Shown here: piece after piece, positions 1,771 through 59,159 of the stretch
Layout: the number at the start of each line of letters is the position of its first letter
Position numbering within the stretch: the first letter of the stretch is position 1
NCBI GenBank assembly: GCA_027596075.1
Contig: JADGJC010000003.1
Coordinates: 186,001 to 250,000, forward strand
Source of the DNA: Rhizophlyctis rosea
Lineage: Eukaryota > Chytridiomycota > Chytridiomycetes > Rhizophlyctidales > Rhizophlyctidaceae
Direction of reading: 5' to 3'
DNA length: 64,000 nt
Notes under the pieces: generated by a model
What the model was told of the DNA's origin: nothing
Databases searched by the model: none
Seen by the model: the letters and a program-made list of their open reading frames with translations, nothing else
Position numbers and translations under genes: made by a program

Positions 1771-2949
1771 TGTGACTATTGGTATCGGATGGGGAGAAAA
1801 GATGAATATACGAAGGAGGTAGGAAAGGCCTCTGGCTTTGCTTTGGAGTTCGACGATCCACCATGCAGAATCAACTCACAAATGGGGTGACAGATGTTCA
1901 TACTGTGTCAGACGCACTTTTCCGGCGCTGCAAGTGGATAAGACCCCTCATACTCCTCATGTTTCAGACACCCGCCCAGTCAGCCCAAGGCGGGTGATGC
2001 TCAATGACGAAGTTTTTGAGCCGCAATGTGCCCTAGTGGAGACATCAAGTACCTTGTACCCGTGCCATCCACGTGCATTCCAAGTTGTATTCCAGAAGGC
2101 AAACGCGGTTTTCAAATGGTCATCAAGAGGCAAAGCATTCATCAGATGGTAGGTGCCGACATCTTTGAGACTTTGAGAGATGCAGCAAAGACTGGCATCC
2201 TGCGATATCAGATTTTGCCCAAGGCGGTCAATATGAGACTGAGATGACATACATGCCTCCATGTCCAAAGCAAGCTATCAATCGTACTTAACCTTTGGCT
2301 CACGGCACACAGAATGGTATATTGAACATTTGTCAGGTCCTTAAATGCTGACATAAGAGGATGGGAAACAACAATTCATGCAGCTTTTGAATTGCGCAGC
2401 CAACTGCGCAATGCTGCTCAGCTCAATCATGGTACCCCGCCAAGAAACTTCGCCTCAATCTCAATTGCTACATCATCAAAATATCTATAAATACCACTAT
2501 CACCCCGCAACCCCTTGCTCAATTCCCATACTTACCTAACGGGGCTTTCCGGTGCTCAAGAATGCCGGACGCTAGTCATTGGACCTGGCATTGCACAAAC
2601 GTCCGGGTCTGGTGACTACACACCTTTCGGGGGAGTGACCGTATAATTTTTGATAGTCGGAGGATTTCTGCGTTCGCGCGGGGCCTCCTGATCAATTGCA
2701 AAATGAAGAAGAAAATTGGACTACGTGGGGATGCGGCTGTCGCTTGTTTGCAGGAATCTGAGTGGGCGGAAGGGTTTTGTACACTTGCAGGTGGGTCGAT
2801 TCCCATGAGATTTAAGAAACATGCGAATCTTCGAACTCAAAATGAAAACATGAAACACGTATATACAATGCGATTCTCCAGCCTAAATACATTTGCCTCG
2901 CATAGGTCACCAGTTCCTGTCAATCTACATACAACCCTCTCCACAGCAG
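1771..2949. other. Intergenic stretch, no supported gene
   Basis: A 103-codon minus-strand frame (1957-2268) is open but matches no family I know and has no convincing promoter or splice context. Nothing else stands out. Upstream sequences of the MATH-BTB gene lie at the left end. Confidence 0.4.
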
Positions 2950-28497: not shown

Positions 28498-30948
28498 ATG
28501 TTTGTCATAAACTCGATGGCATCCACAACGCCCGTGGAAATTGCTGACCTTCCACTTCATGGCGTTCGTCCATCCTTCCTCGATGCTTTTTTGGAAACAT
28601 GCCGAGGACGCCATAAGTTTACGAACATGACGACGGGACAAGTTTGCGAGCAGTTCATTATACACCAAACGGATTTTGCTAAATCTCCCTGCGACCACCT
28701 GATCGACAAAGGCTCCACTCAAGTTGGACGCGCCAACTGGTTTATCAGTCACACCTGGCAATCTTCGTTTCTTGAGGTGGTGGACGCTATAACGGAGTAC
28801 TTCAGCGGAGTACTTCAGCAATGGGAGATCACCCCGCGATGCAAGCACGCAGTCGGTGGTAGGATACCTCAAAACCCGCTCCCGAAACATCGCGATGTAC
28901 GATCCAATCGGTCAGACCGTCGCCAACTCTACGACGGACTCCTCAGAACCCATAATTTGGTTTGACGTGTTTTCCCTACCACAACATGGCAGAAGTGTTA
29001 TAACAGCCGAGTGGCTACAAGCCACATTCGTAAACACCATATCCTCCATACAAAACGTCTTGATGATCCTGACCCCGTATTACGCCCCCATCACCCTTAC
29101 CCGCGCCTGGTGTGTATATGAGTTGTACACCTGTGTTTCGACAAAATCCAACTTCGACATCGCTGTTCCTCCGCGTCAAGTTGCTCATTTCCGGGATAAT
29201 ATGTTAAGCAACGCCAATGTATTCCACGATACCCTTGCTTCTATCAACTCTGAAAAGTGTGACGCGACAGATGAAAGGACTTGAGGATCATCAGACGAGC
29301 AATTCGCGAAGCAGTGGGGTTTGGGGCGCTTCACCGCATGGTGTGTGCTCTGTTGTCAAACTGGATGGCGAGAAGCTTGCAGCTGGAGTTAAAAAGGACC
29401 GCGGATTCCGAAAATGAAGCAGAACATGCGCGGTGGTGTTTTGCGCTGGCCCGGTTGTACACACATCTCGGAAACTTCAAAGAAGCAAAGCCCTTATATG
29501 TAGAATGTCTTGAGAGAAACAGGCAACAGAAGGGGGATGATGATATCGCCACAATCGATCGTGCCTCAGATTTGGCCAATGTTTATCGGGAGTTGGGAAA
29601 TTTTACGGAGGCGGAGAAAGTCTACTTAGATTGTCAAACAAAGAGATTGGCGCAGCTGAAGGGAATGGAGGATCCGGCTACGTTACGGTGCACTATGAAC
29701 CTGGGTGGACTTTATGTGTCCCATCGATATTACCAAAAGGCGGAATCGACTATGGCGGACGTTTTGCCTGCAGTGAGGAGGATCCTCGGTCCAGATCATC
29801 AAAATGCACTATCAGGCGCCAACAATCTTGCATTAGCCTACTTGGAGCAGAAGAAACACGATGAAGCTGAACCATTACTTGTGGATGTGTTAGAATGGTC
29901 ATCACGATTATACGGCAACCGAAGTCTATTAATGCTGGACGCCCTTGGCAACCTTGCGACCTTCTATTTCGGACACGGAAAGCACAACAAAGCGGAACCT
30001 CTCGCCTTGCGGTGTGTAGAAGGGCGGCTTCGCATGTTGGGGGATCGTCATCCAAACACACTCTCCATCATGAATACCCTTGCTATGATATACAAAGACC
30101 GTGGGAATTACGTAAAGGCGGAAGAGCTGTGTGAGCACATCCTGAGGGAGCGCAAGGCGGATTTGAGAGAATGTCATAAGGATACGCTGTGGTCCATGCA
30201 CAACTTAGGGGATGTATCATGCCGGGCGGGAAAGTGTGTTGAGGCAGAGAAGCTGTTCGTTGAATGTTTGACGGTTCATTGACGTGTGCTGGGAGAGGAT
30301 CATCGGGATACTTGTAGTACACTAGAGCTTCTGGCACGATGCTATTTAAGACGAGGGGAGAGATCAAAGTTGGAGCGGTTATATAGGGATCGGATGGAAA
30401 GGACCAGACAAACAGTCGGAGAGGATCATCCGGATACGGCAAAACGTGTGAACGCTTTGGCGGGAATTTTGTGTCAGCTGGAGATGTACGACAAGGCACA
30501 ACCTTTGTGGGAGACATTACTGGCACGGAATCAACGGATCTTTGGGGAGAATCACACAGAAGTAATATCCGTCATGCATTCGTTGGCTCAAAACTACCAG
30601 AACCAGGGACGCATCGAGGAAGCGGGGCCCTTATATGAGAATGTCCTGCATGTGCTGCGAATGACGGTTGGAGAAAATGCTCTACAAAGCCTACAGTGCA
30701 TGGCGGACCTTGGACATTGCTATTATGGGCAAGGAAGGCTGGGAGAGGCAGAAAGGCTCACGGCTGAATGTCTTGAGCGGAGTACACGCGTGCTGGGAGG
30801 AGATCATAAGGACACTCTTGTCCTCCGGGAGCAGCTGGCCGACATCCGTGCGGACATGCGAGACATGGAAAATGTGATCAATGAAGATTCCATACATATA
30901 CACGCCCAAGTAAATATCGTGCGGATTCCGTCGTCCAACTGCGCATAG
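28498..30948 (+). pseudogene. TIR-like domain plus kinesin-light-chain-type TPR protein, disrupted
   Basis: Exon 1 (28498-28855) and exon 2 (from 28947) join across a 91-nt intron in phase 1, restoring EPIIWFDVFSLPQHG. The N-terminal 250 residues form a TIR-like module: ANWFISHTW, IWFDVFSLPQ, LTRAWCVYELYTC. A second copy of this module is at 44.7-46.2 kb. After residue about 250 come about 12 TPR repeats of 42 residues of kinesin-light-chain type (for example RHPNTLSIMNTLAMIYKDRG). Two breaks are seen: a frameshift within 29275-29281, just after CDATDE, and an in-frame TGA at 30280-30282 in the middle of a TPR, where a single base change from an Arg codon would do. Both sides of each break stay open and homologous. 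Such TIR-TPR proteins are probably self/non-self or stress sensors; that is inference. Sequencing error could explain one break but hardly both. Confidence 0.7.
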
Positions 30949-46151: not shown

Positions 46152-47383
46152 TGTAGTACCAATGGGTTCTTGACACTCATGAAAAATGATTAGCGTTTTA
46201 TTTAATGTGCGACAGCGAGGACATTTCACCTCCGAAAGGTTTCGTGAGAATGGCGAGAAGGCCGTCGAAGGCCGTCAGTGCATTCGACGAGGGTAAATTG
46301 CAGACCATCCCCACAGGTTCGCCAGCATCCCGATTCCGAACACAAAGAAGCCTCGGGCGTAGAAGGTGACAAAGCCTTCCGTTGCGGAGGTGCCATCAAA
46401 ACGTCATTCGCCATTTGCAGTCTTTATCAGGTCTTCCTCACTTTGGTCACTTGTATCCACCACCCTGCCGCTGTGGTCTCCAACACATTTGCCAAACCCA
46501 TTCGTGTGCTTATTGGGGGCCTTCCAAAAATGCGTATCAGCACCGCGACGCAAATTTTGAAACGCGTTTATTTTCGAAATTTTCCATACAAATTTTTCTT
46601 GTTCTGGAATTGAATATATGCCCCTACAGAGCCCCCATATATGGCTTTTCTTTTAAATTTATATGTCTGTTAGTTGCTGAGAAAAACGTGCTTGAAATTT
46701 GCGTGGTGGTGCTGACAGACGATTTTTGGAAGGCTCCCATACCCATCACACGAGGCCGGGCCCGATATGATGTCCAGACGCTCCGGACGTCAGTCCAAAA
46801 ACCCATAACGTTTTGATGAGTTTGATACACTCCACTGAAACATGACAACATACTGGTATCAAAGGTCGAAGTTGGATTCCAGGAGCGAGAGGACTGCGGA
46901 CATCAAAGGGAAAATGACATATACCCTGAAGACGAGCAATCGAATTTTGCCGCGGACCTTTGACAGCCAATGAAAGTTTTTGAAATACACACCCCATCAC
47001 CATGATACGTACGCTCCACCATCAAGTCCGGTCCGATCACCACGTATTTCTAGTACCTATAGTATGCCGTCACGGTTTCTTTCAATAAAATTAGAGAAAA
47101 ATTTGCACCGGCTTAGCACGGAGATAGCGCCGGATCAATTCATGTCACAAACGCTGGTGTCCGTGGTACGCCCTCGATTGCGTTCGCTGAATTTGCCATG
47201 TCGATCTGTTCACGTAAGCCCCGAAAATGCCAGATTCGGCTGATGGGGTTCTAGAACATTGATTTCGCTGGCGAAATGGACCTCTATATTGCCGATTAAA
47301 AGCCCATTCACCGGTTAAAGGGTTCGTCTACCGTTTTAGCCTTCTCCCTGTGCCCATCACTGTTCTCTCCACAACACGAAGCA
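46152..47383. other. Gene-poor stretch
   Basis: Open frames near 46278-46816 are short, overlapping and unrecognised. The right end should include the promoter of the coiled-coil gene at 47.4 kb. Confidence 0.35.
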
Positions 47384-48264
47384 ATGACCGACCAAATCGA
47401 AATTACCGTCCCTACTACCCGTACGTCGACAAAACAATTTTTTGAAGAATATGGGCACACAAGAAGCGGCCATCATCTCTATTGTTGCCTGAGGAGATGT
47501 CGAAGAAGCCACCTTCAAAAGTCACTCGCCTTGTACATTTACTGGACGAGATGGAATTATGCGACTTTTTGGCCGACGATACAAGCTGGAATCAAAATCC
47601 TGCGTTTCCGAAGTTTCCACTAAAGACGTCGGAGATTTTGAGCGCTGCTACTGCACGACCTAGAAAGTATGTGAGAAGACTCTCCCTCCTGAGGAGACTC
47701 CCCCGCCATTTGTTGCGGCCCTACTAAACTCTCGCCCCTCTAACATCCAGTAAATCTCCCCGCACTCACCTCCCATCCTCCCCATAAGCCCAATACGCCG
47801 TCCTCAAACGAGAAGTTCGAAATCACCGCCAAACGTACGAGCAGATTACCAGCTCCCTACTCTTCATTCGAATTGTGGGGATCCGACCTTACCAGGTTGA
47901 TTGTGTGTTGCGGGAAATCGCAGATGTACGCAAGGAAGCGGAGAGAATCCGGGGATGTTTGAGCGAGTTGGAGAGGGAGGTGAAGCGCGTGGAGAGGAGG
48001 ATGAAGGTTGTTAAGGGGTTTAGGTAAGTTGGTTGTTTTAACTCAAACATTCTGAAGGTAGAACCTCGGTGCAAAAATCCATCGATCTCCTCTTTTCTTT
48101 CCCGCCTCAGCCGACTATTCGTCCTAGATGAAATCACGAAACGATGGAAGACAGTTGATAGCGAGGAAACCTTGACAGAACCCTCCGCTGCACAAGACCG
48201 CTGGAGAGAATCCAGAATTACCGCTGCACGGCGATTTTTAAGAGAGAACACAATTTCTCGATGA
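47384..48264 (+). CDS. Coiled-coil family member (plus-strand copy 1)
   Basis: The N-terminal exon has an MTDQIEITVP start and, in a second frame, VTRLVHLLDEMELCDFLADDTSWNQNPAFPKF, ending at CRK/PRK before a GTATGTG donor, like the copy at 57.2 kb (QTPAFPVASAG...CRK). The coiled-coil exon reads LLFIRIVGIRPYQVDCVLREI, then VRKEAERIRGCLSELEREVKRVERRMK, spliced at 48021 into SRLFVLDEITKRWK and a C-terminal RRFLREN end (stop 48262-48264). The joins in the first 300 nt do not close cleanly; either a frameshift or missed splice sites. Function unknown; the heptad pattern predicts a coiled coil. Confidence 0.45.
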
Positions 48265-49029
48265 GAGCACAGGCTTCACACGCGGGTTGATACCTAGCTG
48301 CGTATCGAGAGCTGGGGCATGGCAGCTGTTCTGTCCCACTCCTTCAACAATAGCTGTTTTGCCTCAGTTTCATTTCCAGTGAGAGTTTGCGGGGTATCGC
48401 CCCGCTGCGTGGTTCCGCTACCCGCAGTGACTTGCAGCGGGCCCCACATTAGATAGGTGTAAAATGGTCCATATGAGTTACTGTATCATAACGTGTTCTG
48501 GAGTCTTCACTAGTGTATATCAACATCGATTGGACTGAATGAAGGTGAAGGCGATCTTTGCAAAAGACCAAAGCGTCGGAATCGCCCGTTCTCAACAGAC
48601 CTCATTATGTTGCAAGAGAATATTTCCGCCATCTATTCAAAACGCTTATCCGGTTTTGGAACATCCACGCAGGAAGGGCTAGCCATTGTTTGTGCAATGT
48701 AGGTCATAAATGTCGAAGGTTCTCAGGCGATGGGGGGGCAAATAGCATGAAACTTGGTGGTCGCCACAGATCGTGCATACATGATAGTTCTTTGAGATGG
48801 AAATGTGCAGGCCGCTTTGGTGTGTCGCATAATGAGCAGTATCAGGAGTAAATTTTGTACTATTTCCTATCCCACTTTGACCACTCTTCCAAAATGAGTG
48901 CGGGGCAATTGTTGCCCCAGCGCTGAGGGAAGTGCACGATAGAGACAATGGCTGAGCGGGCAAGTTCAACGCACGATTAGGGTGTGAGGAATGGAGTACC
49001 TAACTTCCCAACTGCAGTCACCTCTAAGT
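48265..49029. other. Gene-poor stretch
   Basis: No supported gene; open frames are short and unrecognised. Confidence 0.35.
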
Positions 49030-49455
49030 CAAAACTCACCCAACATCCTCCAAACCCCTCTTCCATTCCTCAACCCTCCTCTTCCTCCTTTCCCGCTTCA
49101 TCTCCACCACCTCAATCATCTTTTCAAACCTCCCGCAATTCCTTCCACAACTCCAGTATATCGCATTGCAGTCGGTGGATGTGCGATTCCGCGGTGAGGA
49201 TTGTGAATCTGATGACCCTTGAGTGAAGGTGTTGGAGTCTGAGTTCTTTCTGCATCAATGTGAATGTGGCGCGATGCTGGCGCATGCGTTTTGAAACGGT
49301 GGAGAGGTCGTTTGATGTGGGGTGATGGTGGGCCATTTTGAGGTCTGTGAGCTCATGTGGTCAATCAGATGAGAGGTGACGCAAGAACGAGCAGGATTCA
49401 CTTTTTGGAAAGCGACGGTGCCCCGCATCGGCCATTCTGGGAAGTGCCGACGGCT
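49030..49455 (-). pseudogene. Coiled-coil family member (minus-strand copy 2), frameshifted
   Basis: On the minus strand an ATG at 49434 (MADAGHRRFP) sits in the same 29-bp context as copy 3. The coil exon reads DLSTVSKRMRQHRATFTLMQKEL, LHSRVIRFTILTAESHIHRLQC and ELWKELRE, aligning with copy 3 (SKRMRQHHGALTSLRKAV). The frame then breaks near 49126-49136: the next frame continues FEKMIEVVEMKRERRKRRVEEW. One extra base in a GGG run accounts for it. Confidence 0.55.
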
Positions 49456-50090
49456 GGAGTACAGTCCCTGTTCTGCGTCGTTATTTGGGCAGGAAAGCGC
49501 ACGCTCGCTACTCCCTCGTTTGTACGCGAAGGCGAGAAGCTTGAAGCGGAGGGATATGGAATATTGACTTCTTTCTACGGGTGAATGTACCGATTGTGGC
49601 ATTGCCTTGGAGGTGCATTGGACGGTGTTTCCATGGGAATGGGAGGATCGCCTTACTTTGTCTAACAACTTATATATTTGATCGGAGCGTCTGTAACGTG
49701 AACTAACGTGAGCATGTTGTGTCAGGAACCTGCCAATATCAAAACACCACCAAAGCACCACTGGTTCGATGATGCGATGCATGCATCCATTCGAAAGAAA
49801 AATATACTGCCCAAATGAATAGGGTGAAAGTAATCGTCATTAGTGAATGGCACCGAAAGGGAAATCTTTGGGAAGCTATGCTGACAAAGGCCCAGAATAC
49901 GGATTTGTGGCTGCCACGATAGCAACTGAGGGATATGTATTCAAGGTCAAAAATATCTGTCTCCACCCGTGCCTGCCTCTTAGACTTCTCAGAAGCAACA
50001 GTTCCATCCAGAAGCGCATCACAGGAATCGGGCGTAAATGTTTGCCCCGGAATGCTTCCCGTTCTCTGTGGATCATGCTAGGAAGGTGCA

Positions 50091-50718
50091 TCACCGCATA
50101 CCCGCTGGTTGAGGGAGTCGCATCCGGATCTCCGATGGTGAGCCGAAGCGGACTCTAGATGATGGCCGCCGAGGGCGGTAGAGACCAAGACTTTGATGAA
50201 TGAACCAAGGTTATGTTAGCAACCCACGCCCTTCGGGAAAAACATCAAGGGGCCAGACGATCAGCAAGCAAAAAAGTGTACCTGATGATCGTGAAAAGCC
50301 TCTTACAATTTCTTATTCTCCTCTCCCGTTTCTCCTGCTTTCGAATCTCAACCTGGATCAGATCCTCCACCCTATCCAACTCTGCCGACATTTTTATCGC
50401 ACCACATTGTACAAAACCAATATTGGACTCCAAAGAGATGATCCTGAGTCGGAATACTGTGCAATAGAATTCTTCCAATTTGACTGCTTTTCGTAAGGAC
50501 GTCAGTGCACCGTGGTGTTGACGCATTCGCTTTGAGATGATGGCGAGATCAGTTCTTGTGCATGTTCCTGGAATCTGCCGGGGTCTATAATGATTGGAGG
50601 AAGGGAATAAATCAACGAGGGTGCACTCGAAACGGTGTTGATAAATACATACTTGCTGCTCAATTGGAAAGAAGGTGGGGGCAAGAGCGAGGTGATATTT
50701 GCTTTTTGCAGGAGACAT
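50091..50718 (-). CDS. Coiled-coil family member (minus-strand copy 3), intact
   Basis: Exons complement(50718..50653), (50574..50282) and (50190..50091), all phases closing, give 152 aa. The N-terminus is MSPAKSKYHLALAP. The second exon is the family core: DLAIISKRMRQHHGALTSL, KAVKLEEFYCTVFRLRIISLESN, CGAIKMSAELDRVEDLI, then a basic RKQEKRERRIRNCKRLF. A short Arg/Pro-rich tail ends it. The core predicts one long coiled coil with a basic end. An alternative ATG at 50734 lies in a block conserved with copy 2 but leads to a stop after 24 codons; it may be a short upstream frame or mark a frame change. Function unknown. Confidence 0.55.
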
Positions 50719-51726
50719 AGCCTGAATCGGTCATTTTGGGAAGTGCCGACGGTGGCAAACAGTCTCCGCTCTGTAGGTCAAGCTGAGAGCACCAGTTTAC
50801 TCAGTTTGTTGCTGCTTCTTTTGGATGTGGAAGAGAAGGGGACGATGCTTTGATTGGTTTGGGATCATTTTGCAGAGGAATATATGGATGTGGGCCCGTC
50901 TTTCGCGTCAAGTGAGCGAGATCGATTGATTTCATTGAACCCTCAATAGGCGGATTGCCTTCATGTCTTCGACAGCTTAAGATGATCGGAGCGCTTGTAA
51001 GCGAACACGGTATTATATATAAGGGACATGCGTATATTGCTTGCAATGGGTGGTAAGTGCTGGTATATGACCTTCAGCAAGTTCAGCAGTCAGTCCGCCG
51101 CCATTGCGTTGAGCGTCTTTACACGCGGTCGAGAGACTAACTCACTCGATTCGGATAACCGTGTGTAAAATTGCGTCAGCGCCCATATGTACAAGGGAAC
51201 ATGACCACATGCGCCCGTTCAATGCCTGAACATTGCGCTGCCTCATCCATGCGCAAGGGAATGGTGTCAGCGAGCGGAGTGGGCACTGTGGGCGCTGACA
51301 TGTGTTCAAAGGGCTTGGGGTGACAGTGGATTAATCAGGAATTGGTGAGTCTCAAATGCGTGATGTGACCCTCGTTGAGTGTGACGCCAAGGTCATAGTC
51401 ACAATTAACATGTATGAGAGCCCCGGACGTGTCAAGTCCCATTGATTGGCCAACGTCATTTTTACTAGGGTCGGAATTCAGAATGCTCTCGTCTCCCTTC
51501 ACATTTTCTTACATATCTCATCACGATATGCATTTCATAAAAGCGCATCTGTCGGCTAACTTCCATCCCGGATCGCTTTCAAAAGTGAGTGCAGTGCAAT
51601 GGCCGATGACGGTTGAGAACTGCAGCGCAACAAGGATTGATAAATACGTCAGACGACGAGTGGTATCACCAAACCAAAAATCACCACGTATGGGGAAACG
51701 CCTTCGGAGGAGAGCTGGGAAATTCA
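50719..51726. other. Upstream region of copy 3 and gene-poor spacer
   Basis: A TATATATAA-like element lies at 51011-51021 (reading towards copy 3). The block at 50724-50752 is 26/29 identical to 49425-49453 next to copy 2. The rest is unrecognised. Confidence 0.45.
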
Positions 51727-51990
51727 CCTGAAGAGCGGAAAGAACCTCCTCCAAAGCTTCTGCCTCCTTTCTTGTCCCTCAATCATTCTCTCCACGTCAT
51801 CCAATTGTTTAGACATACGCATCGCGCCACATCGTACAGCACTGATGTGGGACTCCAACCTGCGCATGTTTTGCGACAAGACTACCGAATGCAGTTCTTC
51901 CAGTATGACTGCCTTCTTCAATAATCTCACCCCGCCATGATGGTTGCGCATCCGCTATGAGATGATGGCCAGTTCCGCTGTGGATGATTG
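51727..51990 (-). pseudogene. Coiled-coil family member (minus-strand copy 4), nonsense mutation
   Basis: The coil exon reads RMRNHHGGVRLLKKAVILEELH, RRLESHISAVRCGAMRMS, KQLDDVERMIEGQERRQK. Just before it, where other copies have IISKRMR, the codon for Lys is TAG (51957-51955). A GTGAAT donor-like site ends the exon near 51727. This copy is the left end of a duplicated unit (see 56.1 kb). Confidence 0.6.
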
Positions 51991-52825
51991 CAAAGTCTGC
52001 GGTGCGCTAGAGAGGCAGGGGTCTCAATACGTATGTGCATCAATGCAAAGCAGGAGTGTAAAGGTACCGACTGTCTGGACGTCATGAGACTGTCTGGAAA
52101 GCTCTCTTCGTATGTTGCGAAAGCCCTCTGCGGACAATTTTCTGAGAGTGGAAGGGGAGGAGTTGCAGTGTGACGATTATTGTGTACCCATTTCATTCTG
52201 CGGAGTATTGTGCAAATTTGGATTTTTTCAGTTGAGGTTCGTGGTGGGAGTTCCTTGCCCGTTAACGGATAAGCCTGTGAGTCACGTGAAGGCAGCTATT
52301 GTTGCAAGACCTGTGCCGCTATTGATGCTCTAGAAAATGGTAAAAGTTGATGATTGTTCAGGTCCGCTGAGGAACCGCCGGACCGCACCCAGATTTGACG
52401 CTTAGGTCTAGGTTGTGCTCTGTTGATCATCAAGAGGTGAAATTCCAGAAAAGCGCAACAAGGGACCCACCATCGACCATGCTTGGTCATCCTGCTTCGA
52501 TCCTTGTCAATCTTCTGATGACCGGGGTTTATCAGTCGGAGGAGTGTGGAGCGACAGATTGAAGAAGTATATCCCGGCCAGGTCGAGGCTGTTCCAACTG
52601 GTGGCACAGCCATACGACCGACCGTATCAGCAGTACCGTGCGGGATGGTTATTTTTTCACCACCGAATCCGGAGGTCCTGGAACATTTGCAAGTTCCAAT
52701 ATCGAACCATCCGTCTGCAGACACTCTCGTTATCCCTCATGGAGAATATATAGTTGTCCCCTATCACTCCCCTCCAAGAACCCGTCCCCATGGCTCCCCA
52801 AAGTCATCACCACTGTCTCCCATAA
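51727..52825. repeat. Segmental duplication, copy 1
   Basis: About 1.1 kb with clear nucleotide similarity to 56095-57150 in the same orientation: shared blocks include GACTGTCTGGAAAG near 52090/56440, GTGAGTCA(C/T) near 52276/56641, TCGACCATG near 52475/56822 and TATATAGT near 52747/57062. Similarity stops near 52821/57146. Confidence 0.65.
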
Positions 52826-53210
52826 TTTGTCAACAAACCCTCATCGGTCTCAATCGCAACGCCCTCTTCCGCATCAATCCACGTCTCAGCGCCATCAAAC
52901 TCGTCGATGCAGCATCGAAGCAGTACGCCTCCAAAACCGACTTCTATTGCGCCTCAACCACTGGCAAAGGGGAGCTCGCCGTCGGGTCGTCCAAGGGTGA
53001 AATCCGGCTATTCAACAAGTTGGGCGATCCAATCATCGGCATCGACACCATCGAAAATGGTCGCTGGATCATCGCCACGTGCCGGAACTACATCCTCATT
53101 GACACGGAAATCCCCAACGAAGGCGGCACGTCGGGCTTCACCAAATCCATGGGCCGGGAGAAACCTAAGCGGTTGCAACTCAAGCGGGAGCATGTGGTGT
53201 GGATGGGTAT
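52825..53210 (+). pseudogene. VID27 C-terminal domain fragment
   Basis: In a frame open from 52546 to 53289 the stretch reads like the VID27 family core: QTLIGLNRNALFRINPRLS, KQYASKTDF, GKGELAVGSSKGEIRLFNKLG, DPIIGIDTIENGRWIIATCR, PKRLQLKREHVVWMG. About ten residues usual between LG and DPIIG are missing. Homology ends at a GTATGC donor-like site (53206), consistent with one copied exon. The rest of VID27, including its N-terminal PH-like part and C-terminal end, is absent. Upstream is the duplicated promoter of the coiled-coil family. VID27 acts in vacuolar degradation of fructose-1,6-bisphosphatase in yeast; this piece is unlikely to keep that role. Confidence 0.65.
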
Positions 53211-54204
53211 GCCTGGTGGAGGGTGCGGGGGAATTGGGGAGGGATGTGCCGGAGGTCAAGTTGTGGGAGGAGGAAGTTTAATTCACTAGGAGGGTGGTAG
53301 TATGATAATGCAAAGCAAGAAGTCGCATGCAAAATCGTGGAATGTATAACAAGGCGGTTGGCGGAAGTGCTAAAGTAGGCTTTATGCTCTAGATATTTTT
53401 CGGAGCTTTTGCGAAGGGTCTACTTTTGTAAATAAGATCATCGAAGCTCAAATTGCGTTCATCGAAATTTCTGTCAATGTCGATACGTGGACCTCAATAA
53501 AATTGGGTGAAGGAGTATGACAGACGGATGTAAATGGTACCAAACTCCACCTGTAGCAAATAAATGGATTCCCACCATGCATGATTTCCGTTACCGCCAG
53601 GGTCCCTCTGGATCCTATCTACCGAAGTTCCTTTCTGGTAAACTTCAATGTTTTCCCATCTTTGGATCAAGTCAATCAATAGGGATAACATCGCGCGTAT
53701 CAGGAATAATGGGTGTTCAAGCATGGAGACCAGGAAATGATTCATTCGTAATCACCTACAATCCTCCCCCCTGTCCACTCTGGAGGTGTTCAGCCTCAGT
53801 TACTGCCCACAGCCGAGCTAGCAAGGAACAAAATTTACACCAGTTTTACAAACCGACGGACTATCGAGATTATCTATTCCACAAAGCATCGAAGTCAACG
53901 TTGATGAATGATCACCACCCAAACATATGAAAGTTGAAACAATAGGTGCTAGAAATCAAATATGATTTCCAGCATATTATACAGATGGCGACGCGAATAA
54001 TCCACATCATATGTGGGGGTTTGTCGACAAAAGCCCATTTAATTCGTCGATGACCAGTCGGCCCACTGGGATGTCGCGGGCTTGAAAGATCGCTCTGAGA
54101 GATGACAGTCGAGAACGGTAAAGCTCGAAACTTGTGCGGGCAGGGGGCAAATGTGGCATTAGCCGTTACATTAAGATTGACCTCAGGCAAACGCAGAACA
54201 CACC
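53211..54204. other. Gene-poor stretch
   Basis: Downstream of the VID27 fragment. No supported gene. Confidence 0.35.
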
Positions 54205-54490
54205 TGACGAAGGCGAAGACTCTTTTGCCATTTTCGACCTTTCTTTTGCGTTTTTCCCGCTTACGAACCCACGCCTCTATCTCTCGCAACTCTCTTGACA
54301 TCAAGTAAACCCATATCGTATGCGACGGATGTCGGACTCCACATTGATGATCCGGAGCAAAAAGATTCTCGAATGCTGTTCTTCCCGTTTGACCGCTTTC
54401 TGTAGCAAGCTCAACGCATAGTGGTGTCGACGTATCCGTTTTGAAATGATGGCAAGCTGGGTCCCGGTGGATTGGGATGAAGGCGGCGAT
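54205..54490 (-). pseudogene. Coiled-coil family member (minus-strand copy 5), frameshifted
   Basis: Reads QLAIISKRIRRHHYALSLLQ, KAVKREEQHSRIFLLRIINVES, then stops at TGA (54303-54301) just where other copies have GAIKMS. The neighbouring frame continues at once with MSRELREIEAWVRKREKRKRK and KRVFAFVR before a GTGTGT donor. A one-base loss explains it. Confidence 0.55.
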
Positions 54491-56094
54491 GGTCTATGTT
54501 GATGTACAGGAATGGGTTAACCAGCTTGTCAGCAAAGCAAGGAGAAAGGAGTAGATCGTTACTTGTTGAAGACGGCAGTGGCCGCCGCGTTCTGCTCCTG
54601 GAGCTTTGGCACAAAACTCACGCCTGTTGCCGCTTCTTCTATGCGTGAAAGGGAAGGAGTTGCAGCGGGACGCTGCTTGTATTTTGAGGTCATCCTGCAA
54701 GATCAAAGGGTTTGGGTGTGGTGCTGCCTAGTCTGCCTTCAGAATGAAGTTCATTGCATGGGATCCTTTTTGGAAGGATCGGTCGACGTTCTGGAACGCA
54801 AGTTTGGATGCTTACGTTTCGATCAGTGCGTATACTTGAATTGTTTACACCGAACATCCTCTCTATCTGAGATGCATAATATATATATGTATATAAGCAT
54901 TATAAACTCATGCAAATCGCAGCAAAGGACGTTGCTTTAGACAACTTTTTGCTCTTCAAGTTCGAATGATTCTCGGGAGGAGAACCGAGTGAACTGATTG
55001 CTGGAGCTGGCTGATCCCTCTACCTGACGTGCCAAGGGCCTCTCCGGGAAGGATGAGAAGAGACACACGAGTGGAGGAACGCTCATTGTGCGCTCTAGAC
55101 CCCATGCTGGTCGAGTGCTTATCTGATTGGGTCCGATGGGTGCTCGCCGATGGCATGCTCTGCGAGAGCCCTTTACGAGCATATGGGTGTTTTTGGGATG
55201 CATAACGTTGAAGAAAAGCATTTGCATCAAATCATCCGCTTTATAAAGCGAAAGTCTTTGCATTGGATGACATCCGTAACTCCTGCATAACATAAAAACA
55301 TAACATAACATAGATTTATGGTTGCAAAGGTCACGGATGTCACCCTTGTATGATACTAGTCGGCATTTGGGATCCAACATTGCATCCATCCCGTCAAGTG
55401 CAGGACAAAATGACGCTTTTCCTCACACCTGCAGTAGCTCTCGAAGTGAGCATGGTTCCCATGTGGATATTCTCTCTGAAGTCATTTCCGAAATATAAAG
55501 ATGGCATTGAACTTTCCATACAATTTGAAAATGCGTTTCTCAACGCCGCATGGGCGGAGTTATAAGTCCAAGGTTTTGATGGCATTTTCAGGTAAGCTCA
55601 GGTCACTGCGATAATGACCGAAATGCGTGGAATAAGGACAGACTGGGAGGCCTCAGGTACTCCCAAGTACTTCCACTTTTAGCGACGCTTGTTGATAATC
55701 AAAGACTTCGAAGCTCGGCCGTGCTCCCTGCTATGCAACATCACTTAGTAAGAGAAATCAGAAACTCTTCACCTTCTCCAATGTGACCTCCTGTCGGCAT
55801 GAGTGAGGGTTGACGGCACAAGTTGGCACTGACGTCGTTCATATGAATACTGTGGATCCAGAGTATTTGACAATGCCCATAACGCTGCCGCTGCTCAGGG
55901 ATGTAAAATATATTCATCACACATATCCATTGAATGACCAATTCCCATCAGAAATCTCACTGATGAGTGATCTAAATGCAGCGCCAGTCGATGGTTGAGA
56001 ACGACAGCGTCCGAGACTTGGTGTTTTAAGTGTAGGCTCATCAACGTTTCATAGCATTCTGCGAAAACCTTGTAAGAAAACGTTGACCTTACCT
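54491..56094. other. Gene-poor stretch
   Basis: A 150-codon minus-strand frame (54937-55389) is open but unrecognised. Short AT-rich tracts lie near 54880 (ATATATATATGTATATA) and near 55285-55312 (repeated CATAA). No supported gene. Confidence 0.35.
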
Positions 56095-56345
56095 GATGAC
56101 TGCCGAAAACTTCTTCCGCCTCTCAACTCTCATTTCATACTTTTCAATCATCCTCTCCACCTTGTCCAAATCTCTCGACATCCAAATCGCACCACATTTT
56201 ACGGAACTGATGTCAGATTGTAAAGTAGTCATCCTGCCGAGGAACACTGTTGAATATGATTATTCAAGCTTCACTGCTTTTTGTAACAGCCTTAAGGCGC
56301 CATGATGGTGCCTCATTCGCTTTAAAAGTTCCGCTGTAGATGGTT
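56095..56345 (-). pseudogene. Coiled-coil family member (minus-strand copy 6), nonsense mutation
   Basis: Reads HHGALRLLQKAVKLE, then TAA (56262-56260) and continues in the same frame with STVFLGRMTTLQSDISSVKCGAIWMS and RDLDKVERMIEKYEMRVERRKKF before a GTAAGG donor. It corresponds to copy 4 in the duplicated unit but carries a different stop. Confidence 0.6.
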
Positions 56346-57150
56346 GTGAAGTCCGCGACGCACAAGGGAGGAAGGGGTTGATAGGTATATCGTGAATGCG
56401 GAGTAGGGGTGAGACAAACTTACTGACGAAAAGTCATGAGAGTGTCTGGAAAGATTTCCTTATATGTGACGAAAGGTGTCTGCTTATAATCTACTGATGG
56501 AGGACCCTCACTTCGTGCTGCGTGCGCGAGAGAAGGAGATGTAGCGCGGCGGGTTTTCCATTTCCATCTCATTTTGCTGAGGATGGATTCAGACTTTGGG
56601 GAGTCGGTGCGGAGACTTGTGCCCGACAAGGATAGCCTTGTGAGTCATATGAAGTCAGCATGTGGACGACCGCCGTGATGCTCTTGAAAATGTCTAGATT
56701 TCATGTTTGTCCAGGTCTCGGCGCTGTGAAACCGCCGGATTCGTGCCCAGCTTGGGTCGAGGTCTGCTGTCTGGATTGTCAGGAGGCGAGAAACCAGAAA
56801 AGAGAAACAGGGGATCCACCGTCGACCATGTCTTGGTCATCACGCCTCGATCCCCGCCAATCTGTTGATGGGGCGGAGGGGTGTGGAGGACGGACCTCCC
56901 GAAAGAAGATGTGGAAGACATCGAAGATCGCAAGTGCACCAGCTGGCGGCACATCCATACGACTAAGGTACCGTGCCATCTCCAATTTGACCGCAGGCTG
57001 GCCCTGGAACATTCGAATATCGAAACATCCGTCGGGCGGCCAAAACCTCTTCCAATCACGATATATAGTGTGCCCCACCCGGTCCCCCTCCAGACTGCCC
57101 CCATGGCTCTGCGGAGTCATCATCACTCCGAACTGTCTCCCAACCCCTCA
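56095..57150. repeat. Segmental duplication, copy 2
   Basis: Direct-orientation partner of 51727-52825, about 4.35 kb away. It spans the disrupted minus-strand copy and a shared divergent promoter with TATATAGT near 57062, and ends just before the start of the plus-strand coiled-coil gene at 57169. Confidence 0.65.
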
Positions 57151-57168
57151 TAGACCTTTTTGCCAACA

Positions 57169-58043
57169 ATGGCCGATACCAACACTGAAGTATCTCCACC
57201 TTACACCACCTGCGACCTCGTTGAAAAACGACTAGGCAACTGCATATTCAATTGTCATCGTCTGATCGACATTGAAGAAGAAGTCGTCTTGGTCACCTTC
57301 AGTTGCAATGACGAAGAGGTACACCAAACACCCGCATTCCCTGTTGCGTCCGCGGGGATGTATCTGCGGGATGCGGCGTGTGGAGGGTGTAGGAAGTAAG
57401 TGTTCCGGATTGTACATCTGAGATTTTTGCGAGATCTGGTTGTAGTGGGGGGAGATTGTACTTTTCTTTGCCGCATGTTCAAATCAACACCAAACTCACT
57501 CAACTGCCCCTGGGCCCCCCCCCCCCCACACCCCCCACCCAAACCCACAAAAAACACAAACCAAAAAAACCAACAAAAACACACAAAAACAAACAAAAAC
57601 AAAAAAAAACAACCAAAAAAAAACACAAACACACCAANNNNNNNNNNGTTTTTAATTTTATTTGCCGCATGTTAAAATCAACACCAAACAAACTCAACTG
57701 CCCATCCCCCCCCCCCCCCCTTCCCGCGCCCGTTCTCCCAAATTCCTCCCTCATCAGACCCTCCCCACACATCCGCAAAACTTCCCAACTCGCAACCCTC
57801 TCCCTGCAAATTCACCAACACCACGACGACATTGGCGCGATTGGGATTCTGGCCATGACGGCTGAGATACGCTGTTACCGCACACAATCACGGGTCAAGA
57901 ACGTTGAGAGGGAGATTGCGGTGTTGAGAGCGGATATTGGGGGTTTGAGAGGGGAAGTGGCGAAGTTGGAGAAGGAGATTGGGAGGAGGGAGAGGTGGGG
58001 GAGGGTTGGGACGGTTTTTGGGTGGAGGAGGGGGAAGTCATGA
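57169..58043 (+). CDS. Coiled-coil family member (plus-strand copy 7)
   Basis: Exons 57169-57395 and 57758-58043, phase 2, give 170 aa. The N-terminus is MADTNTEVSPP; a domain of about 70 residues ends QTPAFPVASAGMYL...CRK, like copy 1. After the splice the coil reads SQLATLSLQIHQHHDDIG, then RVKNVEREIAVLRADIGGLRG and EVAKLEKEIGRRERW. The LATLSLQIHQHH block aligns with LAIISKRMRQHH of the minus-strand copies, tying the two groups together. The intron (57396-57757) holds a sequence gap, so it could hide error. Function unknown. Confidence 0.5.
57472..57720. other. Assembly gap (Ns) with duplicated flanks and homopolymers
   Basis: Eleven or so Ns near 57638-57648 lie between A/C-rich low-complexity sequence. 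GCCGCATGTT(C/A)AAATCAACACC followed by a long C run occurs on both sides (57472-57527 and 57664-57720). This looks like the same locus placed twice around poor-quality read ends. Confidence 0.7.
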
Positions 58044-58829
58044 CAGTGCGAAGTTTGAATCCGTGCTGGGCATGGAAAACTGGGATATCTCTTTATATCG
58101 TACAGAAGTGCTTCTCTTAAGGTTTCAGAACACTGTTGCACTGGTAGGTCCATACAGTAGGATACCCATGATGCGTCCGACAACTGACAGTTCCAAAAAT
58201 GCAACATGGAACTTGTGGTGATGTACCTTGTCTCATCCTTCTCATTCTCGCAGTTATGTCATGAACAAATGGAGCTGGACCCTCTAGCGTGAACTCGTGC
58301 CGCTTCCTATTCTGAGGATTGCCTCACGTGCGGCAAGCCGATGGCGGATCAACCGTTTACCAGGTGTCCCAACTTCGGAAGACCGGGCAGTCTGCAGTCA
58401 ATCTTTGATGGGAAGGTCTGCTCTGGCAGTGCACCCCATCTCCTTGGTCCCGTTCATTTGGGGATCCCAGAACTCATAGTGGAAAAGCGCTTGTAATTCA
58501 ACTTGATTTGTTGTTTCTGGGTCTCTTTATAGCATACAACCCTCCCCAACGTGATCAACCTGCCACACCCCACACTCCCTCCACCCAAGTATCTTCCTTG
58601 CCGAGAAATGCATGCTATCTATCTCCTTCGAAGACGACTCACATTATACTACCTTCCCTCCACACTGCTCCTATCGCACATATCGCCCAACAAGTCGTTC
58701 CACCCTTATCCCCCTCTCACGCTACACCTCAATCCCACTCCTCACCTGCACGCAGTGGCATACAAACGGCGCGTCTCGACATCCTGATATTTCACGAATT
58801 ACGCGACAAAGTCGGAGGAACGTCAGAAG
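58044..58829. other. Gene-poor stretch
   Basis: An open plus-strand frame near 58508-58867 is Pro/Ser/His-rich and not recognised; it may be the 5' part of the next gene. Confidence 0.35.
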
Positions 58830-59159
58830 ATGCTGAGCGGTACACCCGTGAATGCGGAAGTGGGTAGAGATTCCCGGTCGGTGGAGCAACAGCAATTGCC
58901 CATGCGTAGGAAGCAAATCGCTGGGCGCATTGATCACAGAATAGACTCATGCATAAAAGGTCAAAAACCCCACCCAGAAAAGAAATGGGATCCCGACGTC
59001 GTTTTCGGACTCCTCATGTACTCCTTTTTCTCTGGAGCGTTGGTGGCGGGGTTTTGGCTTGTTCTAAACAATTTAGATGAGATGAGGGGTGATGTGCGGG
59101 AGATGAGGGAGGTGATTGGGAGGATTGAAAAGATAGTGGGATTTGGAAAGTGGGGTTGA
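58830..59159 (+). CDS. Small membrane protein with a C-terminal coiled coil
   Basis: A 109-codon frame. The first half is polar (VEQQQLPMRRKQ). One transmembrane helix (VVFGLLMYSFFSGALVAGFWLVL) is followed by NNLDEMRGDVREMREVIGRIEKIV, a short heptad repeat. An upstream exon is likely because the start is weak. It lies among the coiled-coil family but does not share its motifs. No family recognised. Confidence 0.4.
   Translation: MLSGTPVNAEVGRDSRSVEQQQLPMRRKQIAGRIDHRIDSCIKGQKPHPEKKWDPDVVFGLLMYSFFSGALVAGFWLVLNNLDEMRGDVREMREVIGRIEKIVGFGKWG

Follow-up and report, generated by a model that had tools for sequence, protein, structure and literature searches.

How did a cluster of small coiled-coil genes in the chytrid Rhizophlyctis rosea (order Rhizophlyctidales), a soil saprotroph, arise, and which of its members still work? 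The cluster occupies a 10.7-kb block (47384–58043) of a 64,000-nucleotide (nt) stretch of contig JADGJC010000003.1 (positions 186,001–250,000; hereafter the window, whose numbering we use). It consists of five minus-strand copies (c49, c50, c51, c54 and c56) and two plus-strand genes (c47 and c57). We read it as a taxon-restricted family of intracellular coiled-coil proteins that was built by old tandem and segmental duplication and is now partly decaying, with a role that we infer; our rough probability for this reading is a little under 0.6. Open and broken copies lie next to each other in this small, well-bounded orphan family of an early-diverging fungus, so that the loss of genes can be placed in time relative to their origin. 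The family suggests that protein sets can overlook old, decaying paralogues; it does not indicate a new mechanism.

Homology of the minus-strand copies

A first-pass annotation of the locus had described five minus-strand copies with shared sequence blocks, and both DNA and protein alignments bear this out. The open reading frame (ORF) of c50, searched against the R. rosea genome (44.1 Mb in 634 contigs, as for all own-genome searches below), finds five places, all inside the array block and including the query itself. The other four are c56 (E = 3.2e-17), c51 (1.8e-15), c54 (8.3e-12) and c49 (1.1e-7). The DNA alignment of the copies begins upstream of exon 1 and continues until exon 2 ends; outside the breaks, gaps in the core alignment measure 3, 9, 12 and 21 nt, and an extra 1-nt gap separates c49 near the start of exon 2.

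The copies also align better than random coiled coils. Five of the eight open pieces were compared with 500 plain and 500 heptad-register shuffles per pair, and the heptad-register shuffles mostly never reach the real scores: 8 of 10 pairs have no shuffle of either kind that does so. For c54a/c56b, none of the plain and 2 of the 500 heptad-register shuffles equal or exceed the real score, and for c56b/c49a the counts are 16/500 and 72/500. The idea that the copies serve as silent cassettes for gene conversion was rejected, as no inter-copy match exceeds 82% identity.

Each gene appears to have two exons: the first is short and varies between copies, and the second would encode a basic helical core of about 75–95 amino acids (aa), with an isoelectric point of 10.6–12.0 in four cores. 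Splicing is predicted from the NCBI protein of c57 and from matching boundaries. GGT at the core end is kept in all five minus-strand copies and likewise in c47; this region is readable as a splice donor in all five copies and as a TGA or TAA stop in three of them.

Selection, age and decay

We compared the proportions of nonsynonymous (pN) and synonymous (pS) differences in codon rows built from open pieces only, and fitted a codon model to 78 codon columns. The third codon position differs most in all ten minus-copy pairs, with pN of 0.26–0.40 versus pS of 0.54–0.81. The model gives a ratio of nonsynonymous to synonymous rates (dN/dS, omega) of 0.318 at a kappa of 2.5, both being the final values logged in the run. 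The fit is worse with omega fixed at 1: twice the log-likelihood difference is 45.2 at kappa 3, 52.0 at kappa 2 and 94.5 at kappa 1. These values indicate purifying selection on the minus-copy cores.

In-frame stops are few: counted by eye, with post-frameshift stops excluded, there are none in the cores of c49, c50 and c54 and one each in those of c51 and c56. When neutral decay of the c50 core was simulated to 0.3 substitutions per site, the mean was 2.3 stops, and 32% of the runs had at most one. Purifying selection, near-saturated synonymous sites and few stops together argue for old duplications and late breaks. Over most of the time in which the minus copies diverged, their proteins were maintained. 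The array looks like a case of slow birth and recent death rather than of the fast turnover proposed earlier: deaths are seen, but none of the ten minus-copy pairs is young at the pS values given above.

All the proposed breaks are present in the sequence. In c49 (49039–49435, minus strand), the core changes frame near 49120–49134 and the region of exon 1 and the intron is shortened. In c54 (54203–54693, minus), exon 1 and the intron look normal and the core changes frame at 54299–54312. In c56 (56089–56572, minus), the core contains a TAA (56262–56260), and the AG of the shared 3' splice site is also lost, reading TTG (56365–56363). The other two copies are harder to classify. The TAG of c51 (51957–51955; copy at 51724–52196, minus) lies in the core frame, and GT at 52067 and AG at 51955 are both in phase 0, so that the TAG is readable as the end of an intron (52067–51955) in a putative 119-aa, two-exon reading of 43 + 76 codons. 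In c50 (50245–50718, minus; core 50281–50550), the candidate intron of the shared type (50652–50585) yields no single open frame from the ATG of MTDSG: on the c54/c57 boundaries exon 1 is out of frame and this ATG meets a stop before the donor. The copy is open as one unspliced frame of 161 aa from stop to stop (50248–50730) or with the 3' splice site shifted to 50530.

Three of the five minus-strand copies are therefore broken as sequence, one (c51) is ambiguous and one (c50) depends on the gene model. The claim of the first-pass annotation that four copies are broken holds for c49, c54 and c56, and its claim that c50 is intact holds only for the unspliced frame or the shifted 3' site and fails on the c54/c57 boundaries.

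Past selection on the core is thus seen together with three frames that are broken in the assembly. An alternative is that most or all copies work and that the apparent breaks come from sequencing errors or from mistaken gene models, with stops in introns or shifted 3' sites. The strong purifying signal fits working copies. The TAG of c51 and a TAA in c47 (47785–47787, immediately before the second exon implied by the NCBI protein P0002) each directly precede a possible exon start, and P0002 fits the c47 case. The assembly, moreover, seems to fail at homopolymers: the c57 intron contains at 57456–57731 poly-C, an A-rich stretch, ten N (57638–57647) and a near-duplicate (82%) of the preceding sequence, likely an assembly artefact at a homopolymer. 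A similar stretch with N was seen in translation near base 1900 of L010, one of the weak genomic places considered below. However, the TAA of c56 and the frame changes of c49 and c54 lie outside long homopolymers, no in-phase GT-AG intron that would remove these three breaks was found by eye, and the profile search of about 5.8 billion proteins described below returned no NCBI protein for any minus-strand copy. We consider this alternative unlikely, though not far-fetched.

The plus-strand genes

The two plus-strand genes are represented among NCBI proteins. Gene c57 (57169–58043) is HDV00_006165 (P0001, 170 aa); P0001 is identical to its two-exon reading, with exon 1 at 57169–57395, an intron with the N gap at 57396–57757 and exon 2, including the stop, at 57758–58043. 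Gene c47 (47384–48027) is HDV00_006163 (P0002, 91 aa), from which the exons 47384–47420 and 47789–48027 were derived.

Against a profile of the minus-strand copies, c57 scores 17.1 bits, and the best of 2489 ORFs from loci outside the array, an unrelated one, scores 9.0. None of 2000 plain and none of 2000 heptad-register shuffles reach the c57 score (best heptad-register shuffle 16.9), and among 3179 ORFs scanned in 124 kb it ranks directly after the minus-strand copies (E = 0.0052). The predicted intron has the same place and phase in c57, c54 and c50 (AA/GT...AG/A), with K, then P-S or P-R, then (Q/D)LA(T/I). By contrast with c57, c47 reaches a weak 6.5 bits, below the unrelated ORF; 35/2000 plain and 54/2000 heptad-register shuffles do as well. 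The two plus-strand genes resemble each other with a Smith–Waterman score of 73, which none of 500 plain and none of 500 heptad-register shuffles reach, and c57 is the lone own-genome match of c47 (E = 0.45). As c47 is weak against the minus-strand copies, its link to the family runs through c57. The proposal that both plus-strand genes share the core is thus upheld for c57 by score and common predicted exon boundary, and for c47 solely through c57. Among all copies, c57 is the best candidate for a working one.

The segmental duplication

Two units of a segmental duplication lie at 51779–52860 and 56144–57170. The left unit covers a minus-strand gene and its upstream flank, and the right unit ends where c57 starts. 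The alignment pairs 51779–52520 with 56144–56870 and was extended to 52860 and 57170. Identity between c51 and c56 is 52, 58 and 70% in three alignment windows over exon 2 and its end, 60–65% in the adjoining flank windows, and 74, 77 and 69% in three windows of the flank at 52271–52564 and 56634–56908. Several indels in this flank are not multiples of three, and it may be a regulatory or RNA element.

The left unit also contains a 386-bp fragment of a VID27 gene (52830–53215, plus strand), placed just before the expected start of a c57-type gene and contained in a 214-aa open frame (P0004). It is identical to C123:26804–27231 at 364 of 386 ungapped aligned bases, with gaps of 33, 3 and 6. A transposable-element origin was not favoured: apart from the VID27 parent, a 1.8-kb c51 stretch has no other genomic DNA match in a search that was insensitive and also missed the diverged 56-kb partner.

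Relatives and known families

A profile of seven core pieces was searched against about 5.8 billion proteins (word-prefiltered) and returned three proteins at E ≤ 10. Two are HDV00_006163 and HDV00_006165; the third (P0003, E = 1.4) looks unrelated and was rejected. With P0001 as the query against the same number of proteins, only P0001 itself was found (107 candidates scored), and among prokaryote genomes 131 pattern matches yielded no relative.

Own-genome searches gave no accepted member beyond the 10.7-kb array block. Weak places on C624, C184, C431, C223 (267.9 kb), C5, C595, C212, C24, C367, C45 and C222 were rejected at E-values of 0.034 or worse. A seven-member profile was used to re-score nine of the weak places (C212 and C45 being left out): L028 (C367) scores 15.3 bits, L030 (C24) 14.6, L027 (C222) 10.8 and L008 (C184) 5.9, and L007, L009, L010, L011 and L013 give no match up to E = 5. 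With the minus-copy-only profile, L028 scores 9.0 bits and L008 4.2, and the remaining re-scored places give none up to E = 10. By eye, L028 resembles a long, multi-exon coiled-coil gene.

In Pfam, c50, c57 and c47 reach no listed cut-off (best E = 0.0033, PUMA_CC with the c47 core, 17.8 versus 30.1 bits), and the other members give family names with best E-values ≤ 1 only, the best of all being 0.0034. The PDB sequence search gives 42 matches at E ≤ 1, of which many are coiled coils and none is specific (best, tail needle gp26, E = 1.4e-4); among PDB folds, none of the three matches is significant (best E = 6.5). Both earlier suggestions, that the family fits no known one and that it is lineage-specific, hold at the sensitivity reached by the Pfam, protein-profile and genome searches, and the support for restriction to R. 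rosea extends to predicted proteins only.

Likeness to generic coiled coils (keratin, GCN4 and tail needle gp26 by sequence; vimentin by fold) lies in the long helix and the coiled-coil-like composition, and does not go beyond helix composition at the E-values given. Taxon-restricted tandem orphan families with pseudogenes that evolve by birth and death are alike in their local copies, selection on the core and broken copies, and in that no relatives are found outside the species. In contrast to such families, the R. rosea duplications look old, no copy is young and the family is very small.

Protein features and a possible role

The AlphaFold model of P0001, the only copy folded, was built from seven rows and has a mean predicted local distance difference test (pLDDT) score of 68.1 and a predicted template modelling (pTM) score of 0.43. 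It predicts a long helix behind a disordered N-terminus: residues 79–169 form a single helix, mostly with pLDDT > 90 (69 of 170 residues are at ≥ 90), and residues 7–73 are below 50. None of the seven N-termini, which in the minus-strand copies are predicted first exons, has a signal-like hydrophobic stretch by hydropathy (top 11-aa mean 0.95, windows starting at residues 1–20).

We propose the following course: (i) old tandem and segmental duplication built a local family, so far known from R. rosea alone; (ii) the five minus-strand copies diverged under selection to keep the protein (omega 0.32); (iii) at least three of the seven copies have since lost their frame in the sequence, subject to read errors, with c57 as the clearest putative working copy; (iv) inside the cell, the protein would act as a scaffold or adaptor, its long helix pairing with a second copy of itself or with another helical protein; and (v) the variable N-terminus may let each copy make contacts of its own. 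The need for paralogues would then have relaxed, which would explain why copies were lost recently. A bolder version takes a family unique to Rhizophlyctis, its core held over near-saturating divergence and its copies failing together, as what remains after a selective pressure disappeared not long ago; that pressure could have been a partner, a parasite or a step of the life cycle that the helix family once met. We regard this version as improbable.

Points against an old, decaying family

Several points weigh against the reading of an old, decaying family of intracellular coiled coils. The minus-strand copies are putative genes, predicted from the DNA. The scaffold or adaptor role is deduced from shape, and a helical model of the confidence given above says little about partners. 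Saturation of dS makes the ages rough, and there are only seven sequences with few sites. Between c57 and c47, 40, 31 and 42 of 75 codons differ at the first, second and third positions, which is no clear coding signal; the pair is too diverged for one. The flank at 52271–52564 and 56634–56908 is more alike than exon 2 and much more alike than the synonymous sites. Because synonymous sites, if saturated, imply an old divergence, a freely evolving flank would be expected to differ more. There are three possibilities: a selected element lies in the flank, conversion has affected it, or pS, which comes from about 48 sites, is too high.

Further points concern c47. In the 124-kb scan it has an E-value of 1.8 and stands below four unrelated ORFs; in own-genome searches, five non-array places (E = 0.034–0.069) outrank it (0.113) with the c57 core as the query, and four do so with P0001. 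These ranks, like its low score against the minus-copy profile, would be expected if one or both plus-strand genes were unrelated coiled coils, alike by helix composition only. We find this quite improbable, given the score of c57 beyond all shuffles and outside ORFs, the intron position and phase and the following K-P(S/R) in which c50, c54 and c57 agree, the adjacency of the genes, and the c57/c47 score that no shuffle reaches. Effectors or self-recognition proteins that evolve fast by birth and death, as the first-pass annotation had suggested, would fit the clustering, the taxon restriction as far as searched, the several broken copies and the variable N-terminal exon, but are very unlikely, since the lack of a signal and the disordered N-terminus before a long helix argue against secreted effectors, the core is conserved rather than diversifying among the paralogues of this one genome, R. 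rosea lives as a soil saprotroph, and the duplications look old with no young copies.

Other features of the window

None of ten neighbouring ORFs has a Pfam family at E ≤ 0.01. The ORF adjoining c57 (58788–59156, plus strand) appears by eye to encode a single membrane helix with a short, charged tail behind it; it has no Pfam match, and we claim no kinship to the array. To the left of the array lies an inverted repeat (46511–46557 and 46695–46741) with 47-nt arms that are 72% complementary and 137 nt apart, possibly the remnant of a small transposon. Elsewhere, an open frame at 29275–30279 (plus strand) contains repeated TPR_12/TPR_10 units (Pfam), and a U1 spliceosomal RNA gene is present at 2528–2690 (plus strand; Rfam RF00003, 84.5 bits).

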